Source of the DNA: Rhodopirellula sp. P2
Lineage (GTDB): Bacteria > Planctomycetota > Planctomycetia > Pirellulales > Pirellulaceae
Length of the DNA: 64,000 bases
Assembly (NCBI RefSeq): GCF_028768465.1
Contig: NZ_CP118225.1
Coordinates: 5,499,001 to 5,563,000, forward strand
Direction: 5' to 3'
In this document: positions 1 to 62,902 of the stretch, piece by piece
Numbering within the stretch: the first letter of the stretch is position 1
Layout of the letters: every line of letters starts with the position of its first letter
Position numbers and translations under genes: made by a program
The notes under the pieces: generated by a model
What the model saw: the letters and a program-made list of their open reading frames with translations, nothing else
What the model was told of the DNA's origin: nothing
The model's database searches: none

Positions 1-833
1 AAAGGTTCAGCCGATTCCCCCCCGCGATCGCCGAACGATTCCAACAATTGCGATTGTTCGATCAAGGTCTTCCACGGGGTCGTTTCTTCGTCGGGACTCG
101 CATGTTGCAATTGCAAACGTCCTTCCGTCAAGCGAGCGATCACCTTGTCGTTGTCAGGTGCGGGAACCCCTGCGGTCCAATCCCCCTCGCTTCGAAAATC
201 GCGACGTCGGCGTCCACGGCGTTCCGGTTCGGCCTGAGTCGCTACCGCGGGCTTGGAAACTTCCAATCGTGTCGGTTCGATGTCCGCAACGAAGTATCCC
301 AATTTGGTTTTGTCTTTGCCAATGACTTCCCAGACATGACCGGCAAAGGTCGTGCGGACAAAGGTCTCGCCCACTGGGATCGATTCGTATGGGACACGCT
401 TGCCACCGCTGTCCACCCAGAACAACTGCAACGCCTGCCCGGTTTGGTTGACAAACGTGATCTCGGTGTGGGCCTCGGACGATCCACCTGATCGCGGCGT
501 GCGACCGCCCTTCAGCGTCACTTCGCGAACATTGGATTTGTCACCCGGTTCGACTTCCGTCATCTCGCCGGTCGTGGCATCCACCCGAATGCCGGTGAAC
601 GAACCATCGGCGTTCTGACGCCGGAACCAGAACGAATCGTCACTGGTCCAATGTGGCGTCAATGTCTGCTGGATGACGCGTGGACGCTGCGCCGTTGCCT
701 CCAGTGCGTTCGCTGTCGATCCAAGCGTCACGAAGACGCCCCCAAGCAACAAGGCGGCAAGGTGAAGGCCAGCGTCCGCAGGCAGTCGCTCGACCAAAAT
801 TCCGCGCATCCAATTGTGAAACGGCAATTTCAT
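1..833 (-). CDS. N-terminal part of a secreted protein with a VHL-like beta domain, probably a DPP-IV-type (S9) peptidase (partial)
   Basis: An open frame with no stop runs leftward from an ATG at 833 off the window edge (277 codons visible). Residues 22-43 form a hydrophobic signal segment ending in a small-residue cleavage region (TANALEA). Residues about 122-182 (from TEITFVNQ through VPYESIPVGETFVRTTF to GHVWEVIG) match the layout of the von Hippel-Lindau beta domain, which in planctomycetes is often placed in the N-terminal half of secreted dipeptidyl-peptidase-IV-like enzymes. The catalytic part would lie outside the window, so the peptidase call is inference; the secreted VHL-like domain is what the sequence shows. 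It is divergent from the epimerase at 1044, with about 210 bp of shared upstream DNA. Confidence 0.7.
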   Translation of the reverse strand, partial: MKLPFHNWMRGILVERLPADAGLHLAALLLGGVFVTLGSTANALEATAQRPRVIQQTLTPHWTSDDSFWFRRQNADGSFTGIRVDATTGEMTEVEPGDKSNVREVTLKGGRTPRSGGSSEAHTEITFVNQTGQALQLFWVDSGGKRVPYESIPVGETFVRTTFAGHVWEVIGKDKTKLGYFVADIEPTRLEVSKPAVATQAEPERRGRRRRDFRSEGDWTAGVPAPDNDKVIARLTEGRLQLQHASPDEETTPWKTLIEQSQLLESFGDRGGESAEP

Positions 834-38445: not shown

Positions 38446-38486
38446 CATTGATCATTCGTGGAATGGTGCCAGTTTGGCTCGATTCA

Positions 38487-41147
38487 CTACGCCTTCAGTG
38501 CAGCTTGAGCAGCGGCCAGACGTGCGATTGGCACGCGGAACGGGCTGCACGAAACGTAGTCCAGACCCACTGCGTTGCAGAACTCGATCGAGGCGGGATC
38601 ACCACCGTGCTCGCCACAGATACCCACCTTGAGTTTCTTCTTGACGCTACGGCCCTTGGCAACGCCCATTTCGACGAGTTGTCCCACACCGCTGGTGTCC
38701 AGCGACTGGAAGGGGTCGACGGGAACGATCTTGTGCTCGATGTAATCGGGCAAGAATCCGCCGACGTCATCGCGGGAATAACCGAACGTCATTTGCGTCA
38801 AGTCATTGGTGCCGAAGCTGAAGAAATCAGCGTACTCAGCCACTTCGTTGGCGGTCAAACAAGCACGAGGAATCTCGATCATGGTACCGATCAAGATGTT
38901 CAAGTCGCCTTCGAACTTCTTCGCGGTCTTGGTTGTTTCGATCGTTTCTTCCACCTTTTCACGCAAGATGCGAAGCTCAGCAGCGGTGCCGACCAACGGG
39001 ATCATGATCTCAGGCTGAGCGTCGATATTCTTCTTGGCACAGCTGATGGCTGCTTCGACGATTGCCTGGACCTGCATTTCCAAGATTTCGGGGTAGGTCA
39101 CGCTGAGACGGCAACCACGGTGGCCGAGCATTGGGTTGGACTCGTGAAGAGCCGCACCACGCTTTTTGATTTCGGCCAACTTGACGCCCAACTCTTCTGC
39201 CATTTGCTTTTGAGCAGCCGGTTCGTGTGGCAAGAACTCGTGCAATGGTGGATCCAGCAACCGAACGGTCACGGGGCAACCCTTCATGGCTTTGAAGATG
39301 CCTTCGAAGTCTTTGCGTTGGAATGGCAACAACTTCTTCAGGGCAGCACGGCGAGCGTCTTCGTTTTCGGCCAAGATCATGGCACGCATGTGAATGATGC
39401 GATCGGCTTCGAAGAACATGTGCTCGGTGCGGCACAGTCCGATGCCTTCGGCACCGAAGTCACGGGCACGTTTGCTGTCGGCAGGCGAATCCGCGTTGGT
39501 GCGGATCGAAAGGCGACGGTATTGATCGGCCCACTTCATCAACTTGGCGAAATCGCCAGACAACTTGGGCTCTTGGGTTTCAACTTCGCCTGCCATCACT
39601 TCGCCGGTCGTGCCGTCCAGGCTGATGGTGTCCTTGGCGGTGAACTTGCGTCCGCCAACCGTGATCGTCTTGGCCTTTTCGTTGATTTCCACTTCGCTGG
39701 CACCAGCGACGCAGCACTTGCCCCAACCGCGAGCCACCACAGCAGCGTGGCTGGTTGCTCCACCAGTGCTGGTCAAAATACCAACAGCAGCGGACATGCC
39801 TTCGACGTCTTCTGGGCTGGTCTCGCGACGAACCAAGATGACATTTTCGCCAGCTTCGAAACGCTCGCGAGCGTCCGTCGCGGTGAAGGCCAACTGGCCA
39901 ACCGCAGCACCTGGCGATGCATTCAAACCACGGCACAACACGTCGGCGGCGTTGCGAGCGGTGGGCTTGAACGAAGGCAACAAGCAGTGAGTCAAGTCCG
40001 AAGCAGGAACGCGAAGAACCGCTTCCTTTTCAGTGATCAAACCTTCTTTGACCATGTCGCAAGCGATCTTCACAGCTGCGATGCCGTTTCGCTTTCCGCT
40101 CCGAGTTTGCAGCATGAACAACTTGCCACGCTCAATCGTGAACTCGATGTCCTGCATGTCGGTGTAGTGGTCTTCCAGCTTCTTCTTGATTTCCATCAGC
40201 TCTTTGTGAGCCGCTTTGTCCCACTTCGCCATTTGAGCGACAGGTTGGGGTGTGCGGATACCAGCCACCACGTCTTCGCCCTGAGCGTTGATCAGGAATT
40301 CACCGTAGAACTTGTTCTGTCCGGTGTTGGGGTCGCGAGTGAAACCAACGCCCGTTCCCGAGTCGTCGCCCATGTTGCCATAAACCATGGCTTGGACGTT
40401 GACGGCGGTGCCGATCAAGTTGTTGATCTCGGTGTTGCCCTTGGCCGATTCGATGCGGCGATAGCTGATCGCACGGTCAGCGTTCCACGAACCGAAAACG
40501 GCTTCGATGGCCAACTGAAGTTGCTTGATCGGGTCTTGAGGGAAGTCTTCGCCGGTGCCCTTCTTGTAAACCGCTTTGTAGGCATCGCAAAGTTCACGCA
40601 AGCCTTCGGCGGGGACTTCGGTGTCTTCGGTGACGTTGTGTTTTTTCTTGACCTTGTCAAACGCAGCTTCGAACTGCTCGTGATGCAGGCCCATCACGAC
40701 GTCGCCGTACATGTTGATCAGACGGCGGTAAGCGTCGAAAGCGAAACGCTCGTTCTTGGTCGCTTTGGCCAGACCTTCGGTCGCTTCGTCGTTCAGTCCG
40801 AGGTTCAAAATGGTGTTCATCATCCCGGGCATCGAGACGGCGGCACCCGAGCGGACGCTGACCAGCAACGGGTTTTCGTTGTCGCCGAAGTTCTTGCCGA
40901 GTTCCGTTTCCAGGATTTTGACGGCATCCTGAATTTCGTCCATCAATCCCTTGGGAAGCTTCTTGCCAGCTTTGTAGTAACCGTCGCAAACTTCGGTGGT
41001 GATCGTGAACCCGGGAGGGACCGGCAGTCCGATGGAAGTCATTTCGGCCAAGTTCAGGCCTTTACCGCCCAGGATGGCTTTGCTTCCGCCTTTTCCTTCG
41101 GTCTTCGTTTTGCCGAAGTAGTAAACCATCTTGTCTTTTTTTGCCAT
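38487..41147 (-). CDS. ppdK: Pyruvate, phosphate dikinase
   Basis: About 886 residues from ATG 41147 (MAKKDKMVYYFG); the ATG at 41159 adds four residues. Full-length PPDK: N-terminal ATP-grasp (GGKGLNLAEMTSIGLPVPPG, VSVRSGAAVSMPGMMNT), phosphohistidine domain with GGATSHAAVVARGWGK near residue 455, and C-terminal TIM barrel with Cys in LDYVSCSPFRVP and GEHGGDPASI. Interconverts pyruvate + ATP + Pi with PEP + AMP + PPi, giving PPi-linked glycolysis/gluconeogenesis. Single gene, closed by a strong terminator. A long antisense frame here is an artefact of codon bias. Confidence 0.97.
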   Translation of the reverse strand: MAKKDKMVYYFGKTKTEGKGGSKAILGGKGLNLAEMTSIGLPVPPGFTITTEVCDGYYKAGKKLPKGLMDEIQDAVKILETELGKNFGDNENPLLVSVRSGAAVSMPGMMNTILNLGLNDEATEGLAKATKNERFAFDAYRRLINMYGDVVMGLHHEQFEAAFDKVKKKHNVTEDTEVPAEGLRELCDAYKAVYKKGTGEDFPQDPIKQLQLAIEAVFGSWNADRAISYRRIESAKGNTEINNLIGTAVNVQAMVYGNMGDDSGTGVGFTRDPNTGQNKFYGEFLINAQGEDVVAGIRTPQPVAQMAKWDKAAHKELMEIKKKLEDHYTDMQDIEFTIERGKLFMLQTRSGKRNGIAAVKIACDMVKEGLITEKEAVLRVPASDLTHCLLPSFKPTARNAADVLCRGLNASPGAAVGQLAFTATDARERFEAGENVILVRRETSPEDVEGMSAAVGILTSTGGATSHAAVVARGWGKCCVAGASEVEINEKAKTITVGGRKFTAKDTISLDGTTGEVMAGEVETQEPKLSGDFAKLMKWADQYRRLSIRTNADSPADSKRARDFGAEGIGLCRTEHMFFEADRIIHMRAMILAENEDARRAALKKLLPFQRKDFEGIFKAMKGCPVTVRLLDPPLHEFLPHEPAAQKQMAEELGVKLAEIKKRGAALHESNPMLGHRGCRLSVTYPEILEMQVQAIVEAAISCAKKNIDAQPEIMIPLVGTAAELRILREKVEETIETTKTAKKFEGDLNILIGTMIEIPRACLTANEVAEYADFFSFGTNDLTQMTFGYSRDDVGGFLPDYIEHKIVPVDPFQSLDTSGVGQLVEMGVAKGRSVKKKLKVGICGEHGGDPASIEFCNAVGLDYVSCSPFRVPIARLAAAQAALKA

Positions 41148-41344
41148 CGTCGCTGTCAATCCCTGTGTGGGGTTTGGAAATCAAAAGAACGTTTGGCCGC
41201 AAAGGGTATTTGGCACGCGTAGTTAGGTCAATCAGTCAAGACAGGTGAAACCGGCAAAATCACGGGGTTTCCGCACCGTTTGGGCCTTCATTCGGACTCT
41301 TCGTCGCGTCTGCTGATCGACACGCTCAACAAACCTCTCGGCGG

Positions 41345-55453: not shown

Positions 55454-56785
55454 TCAGTCGCCCCGCATCTTCAATCCGAGGTCAGCCAACTTCTCACGCA
55501 CTTCGTTCAAGCTGGTCACACCAAAGTTCTTGCACTCCAGCATGTCGTCACCCGATTTACGGATCAGCTCACCGATGGAGTTGATCTGCAAACGAGTCAT
55601 GCACTTGCGAGCACGAACAGACAGGTTGAGATCAGCAATCGGCCGTTCCAGCAACGCTTGTTCGTCAGGCGACATGTGCGAAGTGTCGACAGGCGGGTCG
55701 CTGGATTTCTTTTCGCCAGCGAACTGGCCAAGCGACAAACCTTTTTGCGAAAGCATTTCGCGAATTTCGACCAAGCTGGTTTCGCCGAAGTTCTTGCTCG
55801 AAAGCAATTCTTGTTCGCTGTGGCGGGTCAGGTCGCCAATCGTTTCGATGCCCATCTTTTGCAAGCAGTTGCGGCTTCGAACGCTGAGTTCAAAGTTTGC
55901 AACGGGCATGTTCAACGTTTGGGCCAAACGATCGTTGCGACGCTGAGCTTCTTCGTCGTACAGCATGTTGCCGGTCGCCGAAGCGTCCTTCATGTACAGC
56001 TGTGTGCGAGGGTGATCGGGATGACAATCCAGGATTCGCTTGTAGCACAACTGGGCTTTGTCGTATTGCCCGTTGTCTTCGTACATGACGCCCAAGTTGA
56101 TCAGGGCACCGATGCCAGTGGGGAACGCCTTGGCAGCACGTTCATACAACCGCAGGGCTTCGTCATCGTTGCCCAAACGGTCGTTTTCAAGAGCCAATCC
56201 GAACAAGGCACCCGCGTGATTTTCGTCGGTCGAAACCGCACGCTGGTACAGGTTGATGGCTTCTTCCATGCGACCACCGATTTGAGCAGCGGTTGCCGCA
56301 CGCTGGTACATGTAGTCCGCGGTTTGTTCAGCGGGACCAAAGATATCGTCCAAAATCGCCATCGCTTCTTCGATCTTGCCTTGATATCGCTTGGCTTCCG
56401 CGATGCCAATTTTGCATTGGTCTTCGTTGTAGCCGGACGTCTTGGCTTGTTCGTAGCCCTCGATCGCACCGTCGAAGCTCGACAGTTCGAATTGGCAACG
56501 AGCATTGTAGAACAGCGCCATCGCACTGCCATCGGCTGCCGAGAGTGTTTGAGAGGCGTCCTTGAATCGGCCCAGCAAGAACTGACAAACACCCATCTTG
56601 GTTTTGCCGGCAGGAGTCAGGGCGTCGTCCTGCTCCATTTCGTTGACCGCGTCGCGCAGTTCACCAAAATGTCCGTAGTTTTCGGTGATCGCCTGCCGAA
56701 TCTCGGCGACGTCGCTGGGGCCGAACGAGTTGCTCGCCAGAACCATTTGCTTCAGGTCGAGAACTTCGAGTTCGACTTCGCTCAT
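55454..56785 (-). CDS. TPR protein with two RNA-polymerase alpha-CTD-like modules
   Basis: 443 residues from ATG 56785. About 50-280 are TPR-type helix pairs (e.g. [40 protein letters not shown]). Two C-terminal modules follow: about 292-356 ([37 protein letters not shown]) and about 380-443 ([36 protein letters not shown]). The pattern hydrophobic-S-x-R-x-x-NCL...GI-x-T-I-GDL...NFG-x-x-S-L-x-EI is that of the alpha-subunit C-terminal domain, which binds UP elements and activators. A protein with two such domains but no alpha N-terminus may act as a transcription adaptor. Genuine alpha is expected elsewhere. Confidence 0.88.
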
Positions 56786-58034: not shown

Positions 58035-58274
58035 ATGAATGCCACACAAACACAACTTCAAAACGCAGACCAACAATCGGTTGCTGCGACGGCAAATGAG
58101 CTGGGCACGGAAATGCGTGATCGGCAGCCACCTTTGCATCCGGAGCCCCCGACTCCTTCCAACACGCCGCGCAAGGATTCACTGAACCAGTTTGCATCGT
58201 GGCTGCGACGGGACGCTCGAGACGAAGCGACGACTTACCTTCATCGAGCCAACACGCACCACGACGGCGAATGA
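58035..58274 (+). CDS. Pup/UBact-like small modifier protein ending in Gly-Glu
   Basis: 79 residues from ATG 58035 ([10 protein letters not shown]), weak AAGG upstream. Very hydrophilic (Gln, Glu, Asn, Thr, Pro), hence largely disordered, with a C-terminal helical stretch ([20 protein letters not shown]) and the end ...HHDGE. Pup and the UBact proteins of Gram-negative phyla are short, disordered and end in Gly-Gln/Glu, the residue the ligase couples to lysines. The next gene, overlapping by 4 bp, is a PafA/Dop-family enzyme. The identification rests on position, size and ending; sequence identity to any known Pup was not tested. Confidence 0.75.
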
Positions 58275-60163
58275 AATCGCCAGTGGCGAAACTGGCCATC
58301 CGCCAACGCCTGTGCCGGCGACTGATGGGAATGGAGACCGAGTACGCGACCTTCATCGATCCGCGAGACGGGGCGTTGCAGGCGGATGTCTCGGCTCGTG
58401 AAGTTTACGTTGCCTTGCGAGATGCGATTTGCCGCCAGATGCCAGCGGTGGAAGGCTTGGACGGCGGGGACCGTCGGTTTCTGGCCAATGGCTCGGCACT
58501 CAATCTCGAAACCCACCTGGCTCTCCGCGACGGCCCCGGTGGACTGGTCGAGATGGCCACGCCGGAAGTTTACCGGCCCAGTGACTTGGTGGCGTGCCAG
58601 CGCGCGATCGATGAAATCATGCGTGACGCATCCGGCGAGGCTCGCTGGTCAGCGAAACAAAACGTGGGGCGAGTTCGCGTCCTGAAGAACAGTTGCGACG
58701 CGGCCGGTCACCTGTACGGCTGCCAAGAGAACTACGAAACCGAGGTGGCAACGGGCGTTGGATTGCTGATGTATCGGATCGCCATTTGCTTGGTGTGGGC
58801 GACGCAGGTCGCTTGCGTCCTGTTCTCATTCCCCGTCGTGATGATGATCGTCGCCGCCTCGATGATTCAACAATCGAGCCAGCACGCCTCGTCAGTGATC
58901 CAGCGTCGCGGTGATCGGCACCGCTCTGATCACCCCAGCGGTCAAACGGACGCTGCCGAGCGAAATGACGAACCTGACGGGGAAGAACAGTCCGACACAA
59001 ATGAATCAGAAGAGAGCTTTGTAGCCCTGCCCAAATGGTTCCAGTGGCTTTCGATCGCTTCCTTGCGTGCACTGCACCTGCCGTTGGTAATGGCACTGCG
59101 TGTGGTCGGGTCTCACTTTGCGTTTCGATCTCAACGCCGCCATCTGACGGGATTGTTGGTGTCGCGAGTCGCAATCATGGGAACCGGTCACCTGGACCAC
59201 GACGGTTGCTTCTTTTTGTCAGGCAAAGCGATGGGGGTGGACCGAGTCGCAGACATGGGCGGCTTCAACGGCGAGCGTCCAATTTACGTTTACGGTCACT
59301 GGTTGACCAAGTTGTGCGGTCGTTCGTGGCGTTCGCTCGCGGAAACTCGTCAGCTTCTCAAGCGTCGCCAGCGATTGCAGATTGGATTGTCGGATTCCAA
59401 CCTCAGCGACCTGGCTCAATGGGCCAAGGTCGGCAGCGTGGCGTTGGTCCTGGACATGATCGAAGCCAAGCGAACCAAAGACTTGCCGCGGCTTCGACAC
59501 CCAATCCAATCGCTGCATGTTTTCAATCGCGATTGGAATCTGCTCCGGCGGGTTCCGACCAGCCACGGTGAAATGACGTCGCTGGAGATTCAAACCAAGT
59601 ACTACCGGGCCGCGGAACAGTTCGTGCGGGAACAGAGCCAGCGTTCCGGTCGCGAATCGGAATGGGACGAAGCCCAGCGTGCCCTGCAGCACTGGGCGGA
59701 ATCGATTCGCTTGGTCCGTCAATTCCGCAAAGACGGTGAGCAAACCGCTCAGGGACTGGGCCGAATCGACTGGTTGGGCAAACGTTGGATGCTCGATCAA
59801 GCGGTCGGTGAGGAGCCCGGCGAGCCTGCCGCCTGGATCACTCGCAAGAAAATCGATCTGCGGTACCACGAACTGTCGGAGGACGGGTACTTCGCCCGCT
59901 TCATCGCCAATCATCAAGAACGAGAGCTGATCGCTGACGTCGACATTGAGCTGCGGCGGCGGAACGCACCAGCGGATTCACCGGCGGCGCACCGCGGATG
60001 GATGATTCGCGAATTCGCCGGCGAGGTTTCGGTGGCAGGTGGCCCGACCATGCGAACGGATTGGGAACGAGCCCTGGTCGACCACAACCGTGCTGTTCGC
60101 ACCGTGTTCTATAGCGATCGGACGGAAGGCAACCGGGGGGCACGTCGGCAGCACCCGTCCTAG
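58271..60163 (+). CDS. PafA/Dop-family ligase (Pup/UBact ligase or depupylase), membrane-anchored variant
   Basis: 630 residues from ATG 58271, overlapping the small modifier stop by 4 nt (ATGA). The glutamine-synthetase-like motif [10 protein letters not shown] (Glu22/Glu24) opens the enzyme, with [17 protein letters not shown] and [10 protein letters not shown] in the place of the NG...D...E-TPE segment. A core motif follows: [30 protein letters not shown] and [12 protein letters not shown] (iDWvaKr). An insert at about 163-199 is strongly hydrophobic (two TM-like segments) followed by an acidic linker (about 215-250) absent in actinobacterial forms. Ligates the modifier to protein lysines or removes it; which is undecided. 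No proteasome or Mpa gene is in the window. Confidence 0.92.
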
Positions 60164-60346: not shown

Positions 60347-62902
60347 ATGGGTCGTACTGAATCGTTGGATCCGGAGCTTCGTGATTTGTTATCACGGTTG
60401 CGCGAACGGGTGCGACGCTACATCGTTTGGGATTCGTTGCTTGCGATCGCCGCGTTGGTGTTGGTCGTCTTTTGGGTGGCGCTCGCGGTGGACTATTTGC
60501 CGGTTCGAATCGGCGGCAGTGAGATGCCACGGTCGGCGCGTGCGGTCGTGCTGTTCGTCGTGGCCGCGCTCGCGGTCCTGATCCTGGCCAAGTGGTTGTG
60601 GGGCAGGCTCAACCGTGAGTTGCCCGATGACTCGTTGGCACTGTTGATCGAACGACATCACCCGAGCCTGGGTGGGCGACTGGTCACCGCGGTTCAGCTG
60701 ACACAAGAAAACCGGTCGCATGATTCACACAGCCCCGTGTTGTTGCGACACGTTCACCAAGAAGCCGCCGCGGCGGTGGACCAAGTCGACTTCGGACGCG
60801 TGTTTCGCTGGGAACCGATCCGCCGCAAGTTGATGCTGGTCGTTCCGTTGTTGTTGGCAGCCTTGGTGATGGCCATCGCCAGCCCGCAAACGTTCGCCCG
60901 GGCGATCGGAAGATTGTCGTTGCTGTCGGACTCACCCTGGCCTCGCAAAGCCTCCTTGGAAATGATCGGGGTCGAATCGCCGATCATCACCGCCGACGAA
61001 ACCGAAGAGGTCGGCACCGAGTTGCTGGCGTTTGAAAACAAAGTCCTGCGATTGGCTCGCGGCAGCAGCACCACGCTGCGAATCCGTGCGGCAACGGAAG
61101 AGCTGGGACACGTCGTCCCTGAAGTCTGCACCGTGTCGTTTGTCGATGACGCGGGCAACCGAGGCCAAAGCAACCTCCGCCGGGTCGGCCGAATCCAAGA
61201 CGGATACCAATCCTTCGTGTTGGACGGGCCGCCGCTGGCGACCCTTTCCGAATCGGTGACGATGACCATTCGCGGATTGGACGACCGCCTGCTGGATTAC
61301 CGCATTGAAGCCGTCGACCCGCCCGCGATTGCCGACATGGAACTGGCGATTCGTTACCCCGACTACTTGCGGATCTTCGATGACAAAGAGGCCGCAACCG
61401 GTTCCGCAGACCAAATCCTGAAGTACCAAGCGGGATTCCGAATTCGCGAAGGCAGCTCCCTGACTCTTCGCGGAACCAGCAGCAAACCGCTGGGCGCCGT
61501 GGATGTCGCAACGTCATCCGAGGACGCAGGTGCAGCGGCCGAAAAAGATGCCAGCGAACCGGTCGTCAAAATCGCCGAGGACCGCCTGTCGTTTGAGTGG
61601 TCCGTGACGGATCTGCGAGAACCAACGTCAGTGCGTTTGGTGCCACGAGACGAAACGGGGATCTCCGCACAAGCTTCTTACCGTTACTTCATTGGCGTGG
61701 TCCGTGACCAAGTTCCTGAAACGACTATGACGATGAAAGGCATCGGATCTTCCATCACCCCGATTGCGATGCTGCCGATCCAAACGAACGCGAAAGACGA
61801 CTATGGAGTTGAATCGCTCAGCCTGACCATGGCAGTTCGTGGCTCCGATGATGCGGAAGCCAACGCTGCCAGCCAAGGTGACAGTGCCATTGGCGACGAT
61901 GCCATTGGCGACGATGCCGAAAGCGGCGAGCCAAGCTCCCGTGAAAAAGGTTTGCAACAGCACACCGTCCAACCTGAAATGGATCGCGACGGCAACGCTG
62001 CCTGGACATTTGACTTGCGAGACTTGTCGGACGACGGCACCGTGAACGGGTTGGCTCCCGGAGCAAGCGTGCAGATTTTCACAACTGCCAAGGACGGCTT
62101 TGATCTCGGGAAACCACATGTGGTCCGTGGCGAAGTGGTGCGTCTGGAAGTCGTGACCCCGGAAACATTGCTGGCAACCTTGGAACGTCGCGAACTGGAA
62201 TTCCGCTCGCGATTGGAACAAGCGATCGACGAGACGCAACGCCTGCGTCAAAGCTTGGTCGCCGTTCAAAACGATGCGATCGATGTGCTGCAGTTTGCGG
62301 AACAGGAAACCGGTTCCGAATCAGAAGGTGAGGCGGTTGATTCGGACGAGGCTGAGTCCCCAGACGAATCCGGTGCTGCGGACGATGCCAGCGAAGAAAC
62401 GGATGGCGAAGAAAACGCCCGAGCACGCCAACGCGTTCAATTGCGAATCCGCCAAGCCGAACTGCAGGCCACCAAGTCGACGGAAGAGTTGGCTGGGATT
62501 GTCATCGGTCTAGAAGATCTGTTGCTCGAAATGGTCCAGAACCGAGTGGACTCGGTCGACCGACGCGAACGATTGGAAGATGGCGTTCGCAATCCCTTGT
62601 CCAAGGTGGTGACGGAACCCTTGCCGCTTTTGCAGCGTCAAATCACTTCGATGGAGCAGGTTTTGATGGCGGAGGAGGCGACGGAATCGCCTGCTGCGGA
62701 AATGACGGACGCAGCGACAGCGGCAATTGCGACGACGGACGAAGTGCTTTTGTCACTCAACGCCGTCTTGGAAAAGATGCTGGACCTAGAAAGTTTCAAC
62801 GAAATTCTGGATTTGGTCCGAGGCTTGATCAGCGATCAGGAAGAATTGATCGAGCAAACCGAAGAAACTCGAAACCAGCAGGTCCAGGATCTGTTCAAGT
62901 AA
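60347..62902 (+). CDS. Large DUF4175-like membrane protein
   Basis: 851 residues from ATG 60347. Two N-terminal TM helices (about 27-49 IVWDSLLAIAALVLVVFWVALA; about 65-84 AVVLFVVAALAVLILAKWLW) plus one near 165-180 (RRKLMLVVPLLLAALVMAIAS), then a long extracytoplasmic part with beta-like strands, Ala/Glu/Asp-rich coil, and a C-terminal helical region. The family (DUF4175) is found in alphaproteobacteria and planctomycetes near MoxR/DUF58 genes and is linked to envelope integrity, but function is not known. The next gene is likely in the same operon. Confidence 0.85.
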   Translation: MGRTESLDPELRDLLSRLRERVRRYIVWDSLLAIAALVLVVFWVALAVDYLPVRIGGSEMPRSARAVVLFVVAALAVLILAKWLWGRLNRELPDDSLALLIERHHPSLGGRLVTAVQLTQENRSHDSHSPVLLRHVHQEAAAAVDQVDFGRVFRWEPIRRKLMLVVPLLLAALVMAIASPQTFARAIGRLSLLSDSPWPRKASLEMIGVESPIITADETEEVGTELLAFENKVLRLARGSSTTLRIRAATEELGHVVPEVCTVSFVDDAGNRGQSNLRRVGRIQDGYQSFVLDGPPLATLSESVTMTIRGLDDRLLDYRIEAVDPPAIADMELAIRYPDYLRIFDDKEAATGSADQILKYQAGFRIREGSSLTLRGTSSKPLGAVDVATSSEDAGAAAEKDASEPVVKIAEDRLSFEWSVTDLREPTSVRLVPRDETGISAQASYRYFIGVVRDQVPETTMTMKGIGSSITPIAMLPIQTNAKDDYGVESLSLTMAVRGSDDAEANAASQGDSAIGDDAIGDDAESGEPSSREKGLQQHTVQPEMDRDGNAAWTFDLRDLSDDGTVNGLAPGASVQIFTTAKDGFDLGKPHVVRGEVVRLEVVTPETLLATLERRELEFRSRLEQAIDETQRLRQSLVAVQNDAIDVLQFAEQETGSESEGEAVDSDEAESPDESGAADDASEETDGEENARARQRVQLRIRQAELQATKSTEELAGIVIGLEDLLLEMVQNRVDSVDRRERLEDGVRNPLSKVVTEPLPLLQRQITSMEQVLMAEEATESPAAEMTDAATAAIATTDEVLLSLNAVLEKMLDLESFNEILDLVRGLISDQEELIEQTEETRNQQVQDLFK

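Follow-up and report, generated by a model that had tools for sequence, protein, structure and literature searches.

The modifier gene and its ligase

We analyzed two overlapping genes in a 64,000-nucleotide stretch of Rhodopirellula sp. P2 DNA (contig NZ_CP118225.1; "the window" denotes this whole stretch), which encode a small protein of 79 residues, here called the modifier (58035..58274, + strand), and a 630-residue enzyme of the PafA/Dop family, here called the ligase (58271..60163, +). The pair sits in a one-contig genome of 7.29 Mb, for which the nearest named row in our tree is Rhodopirellula europaea. An earlier note on this DNA had placed both frames and the ATGA at 58271-58274 correctly, and had taken this overlap as one sign of a modifier-enzyme pair. 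While the overlap exists, it adds little as evidence, because a gene end of GAA-TGA always spells ATGA and because the ATG lies in the ligase frame in only 4 of 18 pairs (those of the window, G009, G011, and G023). The modifier ends in a tail (58236..58271, +) that closes with RANTHHDGE and whose G78 and E79 were invariant in both alignments, and ahead of this tail lies a conserved part at residues ~50-68 (58182..58238, +), with D60 and Y68 nearly invariant. The first two thirds of the protein show hardly any conservation. Judged by its sequence, the protein appears to be disordered, with the conserved part being probably helical.

The proposed family of the enzyme was borne out, as the ligase matched PF03136 (Pup_ligase) with an E value of 1.4e-77 over profile positions 1-435 of 441, matched PafA and Dop chains in the PDB, and showed the PafA/Dop fold. 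The match to PafA/Dop was far stronger than that to glutamine synthetase or gamma-GCS, the two folds that the earlier note had named as counting against its assignment. At 131.7 of 551.3 bits for PafA and 107.5 of 492.3 bits for Dop, the ligase missed both NCBIfam equivalog cutoffs; it is the sole PF03136 match in the genome. Residues 20-25, GMETEY (58328..58345, +), represent the superfamily's ATP-binding GhExE motif, which includes E22 and E24, as named in the passages of PMC7947786 available to us, and residues 366-613 (59366..60109, +), comprising the rest of the catalytic fold and the C-terminal domain, form the top-scoring stretch against PafA/Dop.

Between Y155 and R289, the ligase carries an insert (58736..59134, +) that is absent from solved PafA/Dop chains, which have few residues at this place. 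We could confirm both features that had been pointed out here: the hydrophobic insert, with two strongly hydrophobic Kyte-Doolittle windows at residues 159-177 and 181-199 (58745..58867, +) that fall mostly within a predicted helix (162-218), and the acidic linker, at about residues 232-250. Residues 219-241 (58925..58993, +) were modeled with low confidence and are probably a disordered linker, followed by a further insert helix at residues 255-283 (59033..59119, +) with a weaker hydrophobic window (262-280, 1.49). Upon comparing enzymes from loci with one or two such genes (where "one-enzyme" is a property of the locus and not of the PF03136 count per named genome), we found the hydrophobic insert in all 94 compared one-enzyme-locus ligases and in none of 9 two-enzyme-locus enzymes. 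The active site differed along the same divide. At the place of E80 (58508..58510, +), which follows NGxxxYx, an Asp is found in the PafA chain 4b0t and in 9/9 two-enzyme-locus enzymes, and we take this residue to be the catalytic Asp of PafA/Dop. Such a placement fits Table 1 of PMC7947786. The window ligase has Glu in its stead, as do 93 of the 94 one-enzyme rows.

Co-occurrence and matching of modifier and ligase

Our search of 60 relatives yielded 19 genomes with the ligase and 20 full ligases in all, and the genus sample comprised 13 genomes, 6 with a ligase and 7 without. Upstream of 19 of the 20 ligases lay a small frame ending in Glu, namely in the window, in 17 further complete cases, and, as a partial frame of which ten codons are visible at the contig end, in G015; G025 had no Glu-ending frame upstream of its ligase. 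Within the genus, the frame adjoined the ligase in all 6 ligase-bearing genomes, so that the loss of conservation by which the earlier note would have held its pair refuted was not observed. In alignment A1 (18 rows), M1, D60, G78, and E79 were invariant and Y68 nearly so, where the invariance of G78 and E79 carries a selection bias, as the rows of this first set were picked by their Glu ending. Over the last 28 modifier codons, dN/dS amounted to 0.05-0.43 in 15/15 genus pairs, which are not independent of one another. None of the 15 ligase-less relatives had a modifier match below E 0.115, and 6 of them had a match of some kind under E 1. Scanning with the ligase alignment gave 102 named loci, among the best 80 of which (10 being the same contigs as first-set loci) an adjacent modifier was present in 57 of 78 informative cases, 55 by profile match and two, L124 and L130, by their ending, with two further loci lying at contig ends and 21 having no adjacent modifier. 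Hence, co-occurrence, tail conservation, and the homologues found uphold the modifier-ligase pair, and the 79-residue frame is real rather than a chance reading frame.

We placed the enzymes in a quick tree without bootstrap, which holds 103 rows, 94 from one-enzyme and 9 from two-enzyme loci. Alignment A3 covered 73 of the 80 named loci, with L101, L110, L136, L145, L153, L159, and L160 left out for want of a clean start motif or frame, and a sweep of the phylum found a PF03136 match in 38 genomes, with longer stretches taken for 20 of them, adding 11 enzymes from one-enzyme and 9 from two-enzyme loci. The divergent enzymes of G078, G323, G249, and G295 and a 303-residue fragment of G377 were dropped. 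A branch with a value of 97 split the 94 one-enzyme rows from both two-enzyme clades, for which a long-branch warning applies, and the window ligase fell in neither the PafA clade nor the Dop clade.

The loci without an adjacent modifier strengthened the pairing. Of these 21, 20 are L082-L101, from Stieleria, Rubripirellula, Roseiconus, and their kin, and 19 of them, together with G025, formed one clade (branch value 98; L101 is absent from the tree). This 20-row clade, the Rhodopirellula ligases, and G023 make up a 27-row clade (branch value 100), within which the tree gives no firm branching order among the three. Whole-genome searches with A1 recovered a modifier at another site in 15 of 17 genomes of the unlinked clade (6/6 and 9/11), with no ligase within the roughly 3-kb modifier locus and at distances from the ligase of about 1.3 Mb in TBK1r and about 1.8 Mb in K23_9. 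All 15 of these modifiers end in DGE, with tails of the SNTxxDGE type (for example, RSNTSHDGE compared to RANTHHDGE in the window), though two of the matches (E 0.006 and 0.015) were weak by themselves and owe their assignment to the tail. The remaining exception, L142, likewise has a modifier away from its ligase locus, with the tail VVPEGGE. The non-adjacent exceptions thus support the modifier-ligase pairing. Separately, in G448, G449, and G452 (region L183, 6771-10993), the unlinked modifier lies upstream of a conserved, coiled-coil-looking protein with a hydrophobic start, as well as upstream of a gene that encodes a protein kinase in G449 and is represented by homologues in G448 and G452; a functional link to these neighbors is possible.

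The third residue from the modifier end tracks the ligase clade. In the 48-row clade to which the window ligase belongs, none of 28 tabulated tails was GGE, while among the one-enzyme rows outside it with a known tail, 41/43 were GGE, the exceptions being G060 (DGE) and G363 (GAE); these counts come from related rows and not from independent events. L142, outside the 48-row clade, has kept GGE despite its unlinked modifier, and G018 and Roseiconus nitratireducens each encode two ligases, one on either side of the divide, each with the tail of its own side. Genomes outside the tree vary in their tails (GAE in G191, HGE in G082, and GAE in G120).

Proteasome components and the proposed mechanism

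The earlier note had assigned the locus to a UBact-type system and had suggested looking for prcAB and mpa elsewhere, which the genome did not bear out. UBact is proteasome-linked. Besides its one PafA/Dop enzyme, the window's genome has no PF16450 (the OB domain of proteasomal ATPases), and in place of a PrcA/PrcB 20S core we found for PF00227 only one weak frame (L032, 1270-2876, - strand), beside a transglutaminase gene and about 2.4 Mb from the pair, which we read as Anbu. PF16450 was absent from 9/9 genomes with one-enzyme loci, and it was present close to the enzymes in 3/3 tested genomes with two-enzyme loci.

We consider it probable that the pair forms a membrane-anchored, proteasome-independent, pupylation-like conjugation system of two genes and one enzyme, in which the enzyme most likely acts at the cell membrane, attaching the small protein tag to other proteins. 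With the GMETEY strand binding ATP and Mg, the enzyme would phosphorylate the gamma-carboxylate of Glu79, with no need for deamidation because the modifier ends in Glu and not Gln. A target lysine would then attack the acyl-phosphate, with E80 replacing the PafA/Dop aspartate, to yield an isopeptide-linked modifier. To judge by its hydrophobicity, the insert (residues 156-288) would anchor the catalytic fold to the membrane, and the targets would therefore be membrane or membrane-near proteins. The mark is more likely to be regulatory, or read by another protease, than to be a proteasome tag, because each modifier has one enzyme and no proteasomal ATPase was detected. Removal of the modifier by the same enzyme is speculative. 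Ligation must presumably be among the activities of the enzyme if the system works at all, since it is the sole enzyme and its modifier already ends in Glu.

Several observations weigh against this interpretation. No conjugate was seen. The metagenome-assembled genomes G455 and G464 of the unlinked clade yielded no modifier upon whole-genome search. Modifier profiles run against Pfam, NCBIfam, and the PDB left Pup unmatched, and a PF05639 search of the window's genome did not find canonical Pup, while Corynebacterium glutamicum passed the cutoff. As for the number of membrane spans, only a single hydrophobic window is present in 11 of the 94 ligases, and AlphaFold predicted for the insert one helix of 57 residues and one at 255-283, where the available passages of Iyer 2008 (PMC2588565) counted four segments. 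PF00227 matches, found in 9/23 genomes, did not separate the one- and two-enzyme groups. Lastly, in fold and profile score alike the ligase is closer to Dop than to PafA, and at residues 96-98 (A-T-P) it forms a mosaic, with A as in PafA (4b0t) and P as in Dop (4b0r), because of which it may have hydrolase activity as well.

A degradation tag with a different reader, either a membrane protease (FtsH, for example) or Anbu, is a sub-case that overlaps with the proposed conjugation system, and we regard it as somewhat unlikely. Known pupylation serves degradation (passages of PMC2588565) and the Anbu-like frame is available in the genome, but this frame lies far from the pair and next to the transglutaminase gene, and G003, of the same genus and in possession of the pair, has no PF00227 match. 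The strong PF00227 matches of G018, G166, G033, G140, and G204 are, at a guess, HslV. Among the two-enzyme genomes, G110 has its PF00227 match on another contig, and G075, G072, and G109 have none in the genome despite the ATPase OB domain nearby (L200, L201, L202).

It is improbable that the small protein is a LysW-like amino-group carrier, onto whose terminal Glu the enzyme would load a small amine for biosynthesis. The C-terminal Glu of LysW receives an amino acid, and the fold permits the same chemistry, with glutamate-amine ligase relatives being the nearest folds beyond PafA/Dop. Yet PafA/Dop is far closer than YbdK or gamma-GCS, the membrane insert is hard to account for, unlinked modifiers adjoin other genes, and biosynthetic neighbors are not conserved, the flanks being shared within the genus only, bar a few clusters of two or three genomes that are not next to the pair. 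Still less probable is an enzyme that acts only as a Dop-like hydrolase or deamidase, with the true ligase elsewhere. Its nearness to Dop in structure and profile score would suit this, but the enzyme is the single PF03136 protein of a one-contig genome, its modifier already ends in Glu, and the E24-E80 spacing of 49-68 residues across the 94 one-enzyme rows leaves, as judged from the alignment, no room for the 37-residue Dop-loop atop the PafA spacing, although the two-enzyme rows also vary widely (48-110). In this regard, a Dop with its Dop-loop lost and its alpha-loop replaced gains some ligase activity, according to passages of PMC7947786. That the 79-residue frame is a chance occurrence and the enzyme acts alone can hardly be credited: the poorly conserved N-terminal part and the want of a database family would suit it, but against it stand the conserved tail, the dN/dS values, the co-occurrence with the ligase, and the unlinked copies whose tails match.

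Genomic surroundings and known systems

Neighboring genes gave no clue to function, as, across the 19 genomes, the gene clusters adjoining the pair were common to the genus only. The window's pair is flanked by a TPR/RNA-polymerase-alpha-CTD protein, a tRNA-guanine transglycosylase, and an 851-residue protein. The first, of 443 residues (55454-56785, -), combines TPR repeats with two stretches that matched the C-terminal domain of RNA polymerase alpha, and its cluster recurred with that of the transglycosylase in 4/6 genus pair loci. The 851-residue protein (60347-62902, +), without a Pfam match, lies downstream of the ligase in 6/6 genus pair loci and is kept, at 58-60% identity, in 7/7 pairless genus genomes; as the window's other flank was unmatched there in the stretch compared, a simple empty site was rejected. 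Its gene may be the linked membrane-protein gene in the available passages of Iyer 2008 (PMC2588565). Elsewhere in the window, two long antisense frames of 924 and 890 residues overlap (38448-41222, +, and 38487-41159, -), probably only one of which is coding.

Compared to actinobacterial pupylation (Pup, PafA, Dop, Mpa/ARC, and the 20S proteasome), the window system shares the fold, GxETEY, the C-terminal G-E of the modifier, and adjoining genes, but it differs in having one enzyme, a membrane insert, Glu in place of Asp, no ATPase found, and no Pup-profile match. The observation that the modifier is not recognizable as Pup held, with no PF05639 match among 18, then 53, modifiers, while the Pup-like C-terminal G-[EQ] beside a PafA-family gene is present (the first set having been chosen by this ending). 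The PDB chain 7xkx, which surfaced with the modifier profiles (E 0.0012 and 0.0018), was taken as a chance match, because the match stops before the final Glu and the chain is large and cyclase-like. Two-enzyme loci of other Planctomycetota (G075, G072, G109, G110, and G377) likewise encode PF03136 enzymes, the first three with a small frame ending in GGQ or GGE close by; unlike the window, they have paired enzymes, the ATPase OB domain nearby (3/3 tested), no insert, and Asp. UBact, too, has a small modifier that ends in G-E and occurs in Gram-negative phyla. No UBact-named family was among the Pfam and NCBIfam matches of the modifiers, though such a model may be missing from these collections. 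Near the divergent PF03136 genes of G323 and G249 (L214, L215), we noted small frames ending in NRSGQ and NTSGE, respectively, which are presumably UBact-like.

A Pup with an adjacent ligase in Rhodopirellula and Plesiocystis, with a membrane insert, no proteasome linkage, and a role in the tagging of membrane proteins, was already proposed in 2008 by Iyer, Burroughs, and Aravind (passages of PMC2588565), a result that PMC2837639, in the part available, cites. The earlier note was right about the pair and did not take this description into account. Our pair resembles theirs in the genus, in the small unannotated Pup beside the ligase, and in the trans-membrane insert after core strand 4, such that the variant itself is foreseen in those 2008 passages. 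What goes beyond them, and is added here, is the Glu for Asp, the family-wide association of the insert with one-enzyme loci, the unlinked modifiers, the match between tail and ligase clade, which switch together, and genomes with two pairs. The single-copy Planctomycetes PafA/Dop homologue used as an outgroup in PMC7947786, which lies outside the PafA-Dop split both there and in our tree, probably belongs to the same protein group as the window ligase; the available passages of that paper do not take up its modifier, insert, or function. Judged by titles and the starts of abstracts, only PMC2588565 and PMC7947786 in the open-access literature treat these proteins, and none later the pair; subscription papers and supplements lay outside the scope.

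More tentatively, we envisage a pupylation branch of its own, where a single enzyme, anchored in the membrane and using Glu in catalysis, might both add and remove the Glu-ending modifier as a reversible mark of membrane proteins that involves no proteasome, with modifier and enzyme co-evolving and staying matched even megabases apart, and with G018 and Roseiconus running two separate pairs. The matched tail types offer a direct in vitro test of specificity. As the ligase falls outside the PafA-Dop split, it is also informative about the divergence of ligase and hydrolase. What is known of pupylation is its role as a tag for the proteasome; if true, a proteasome-free, one-enzyme branch at the membrane would show the use of pupylation chemistry apart from degradation.
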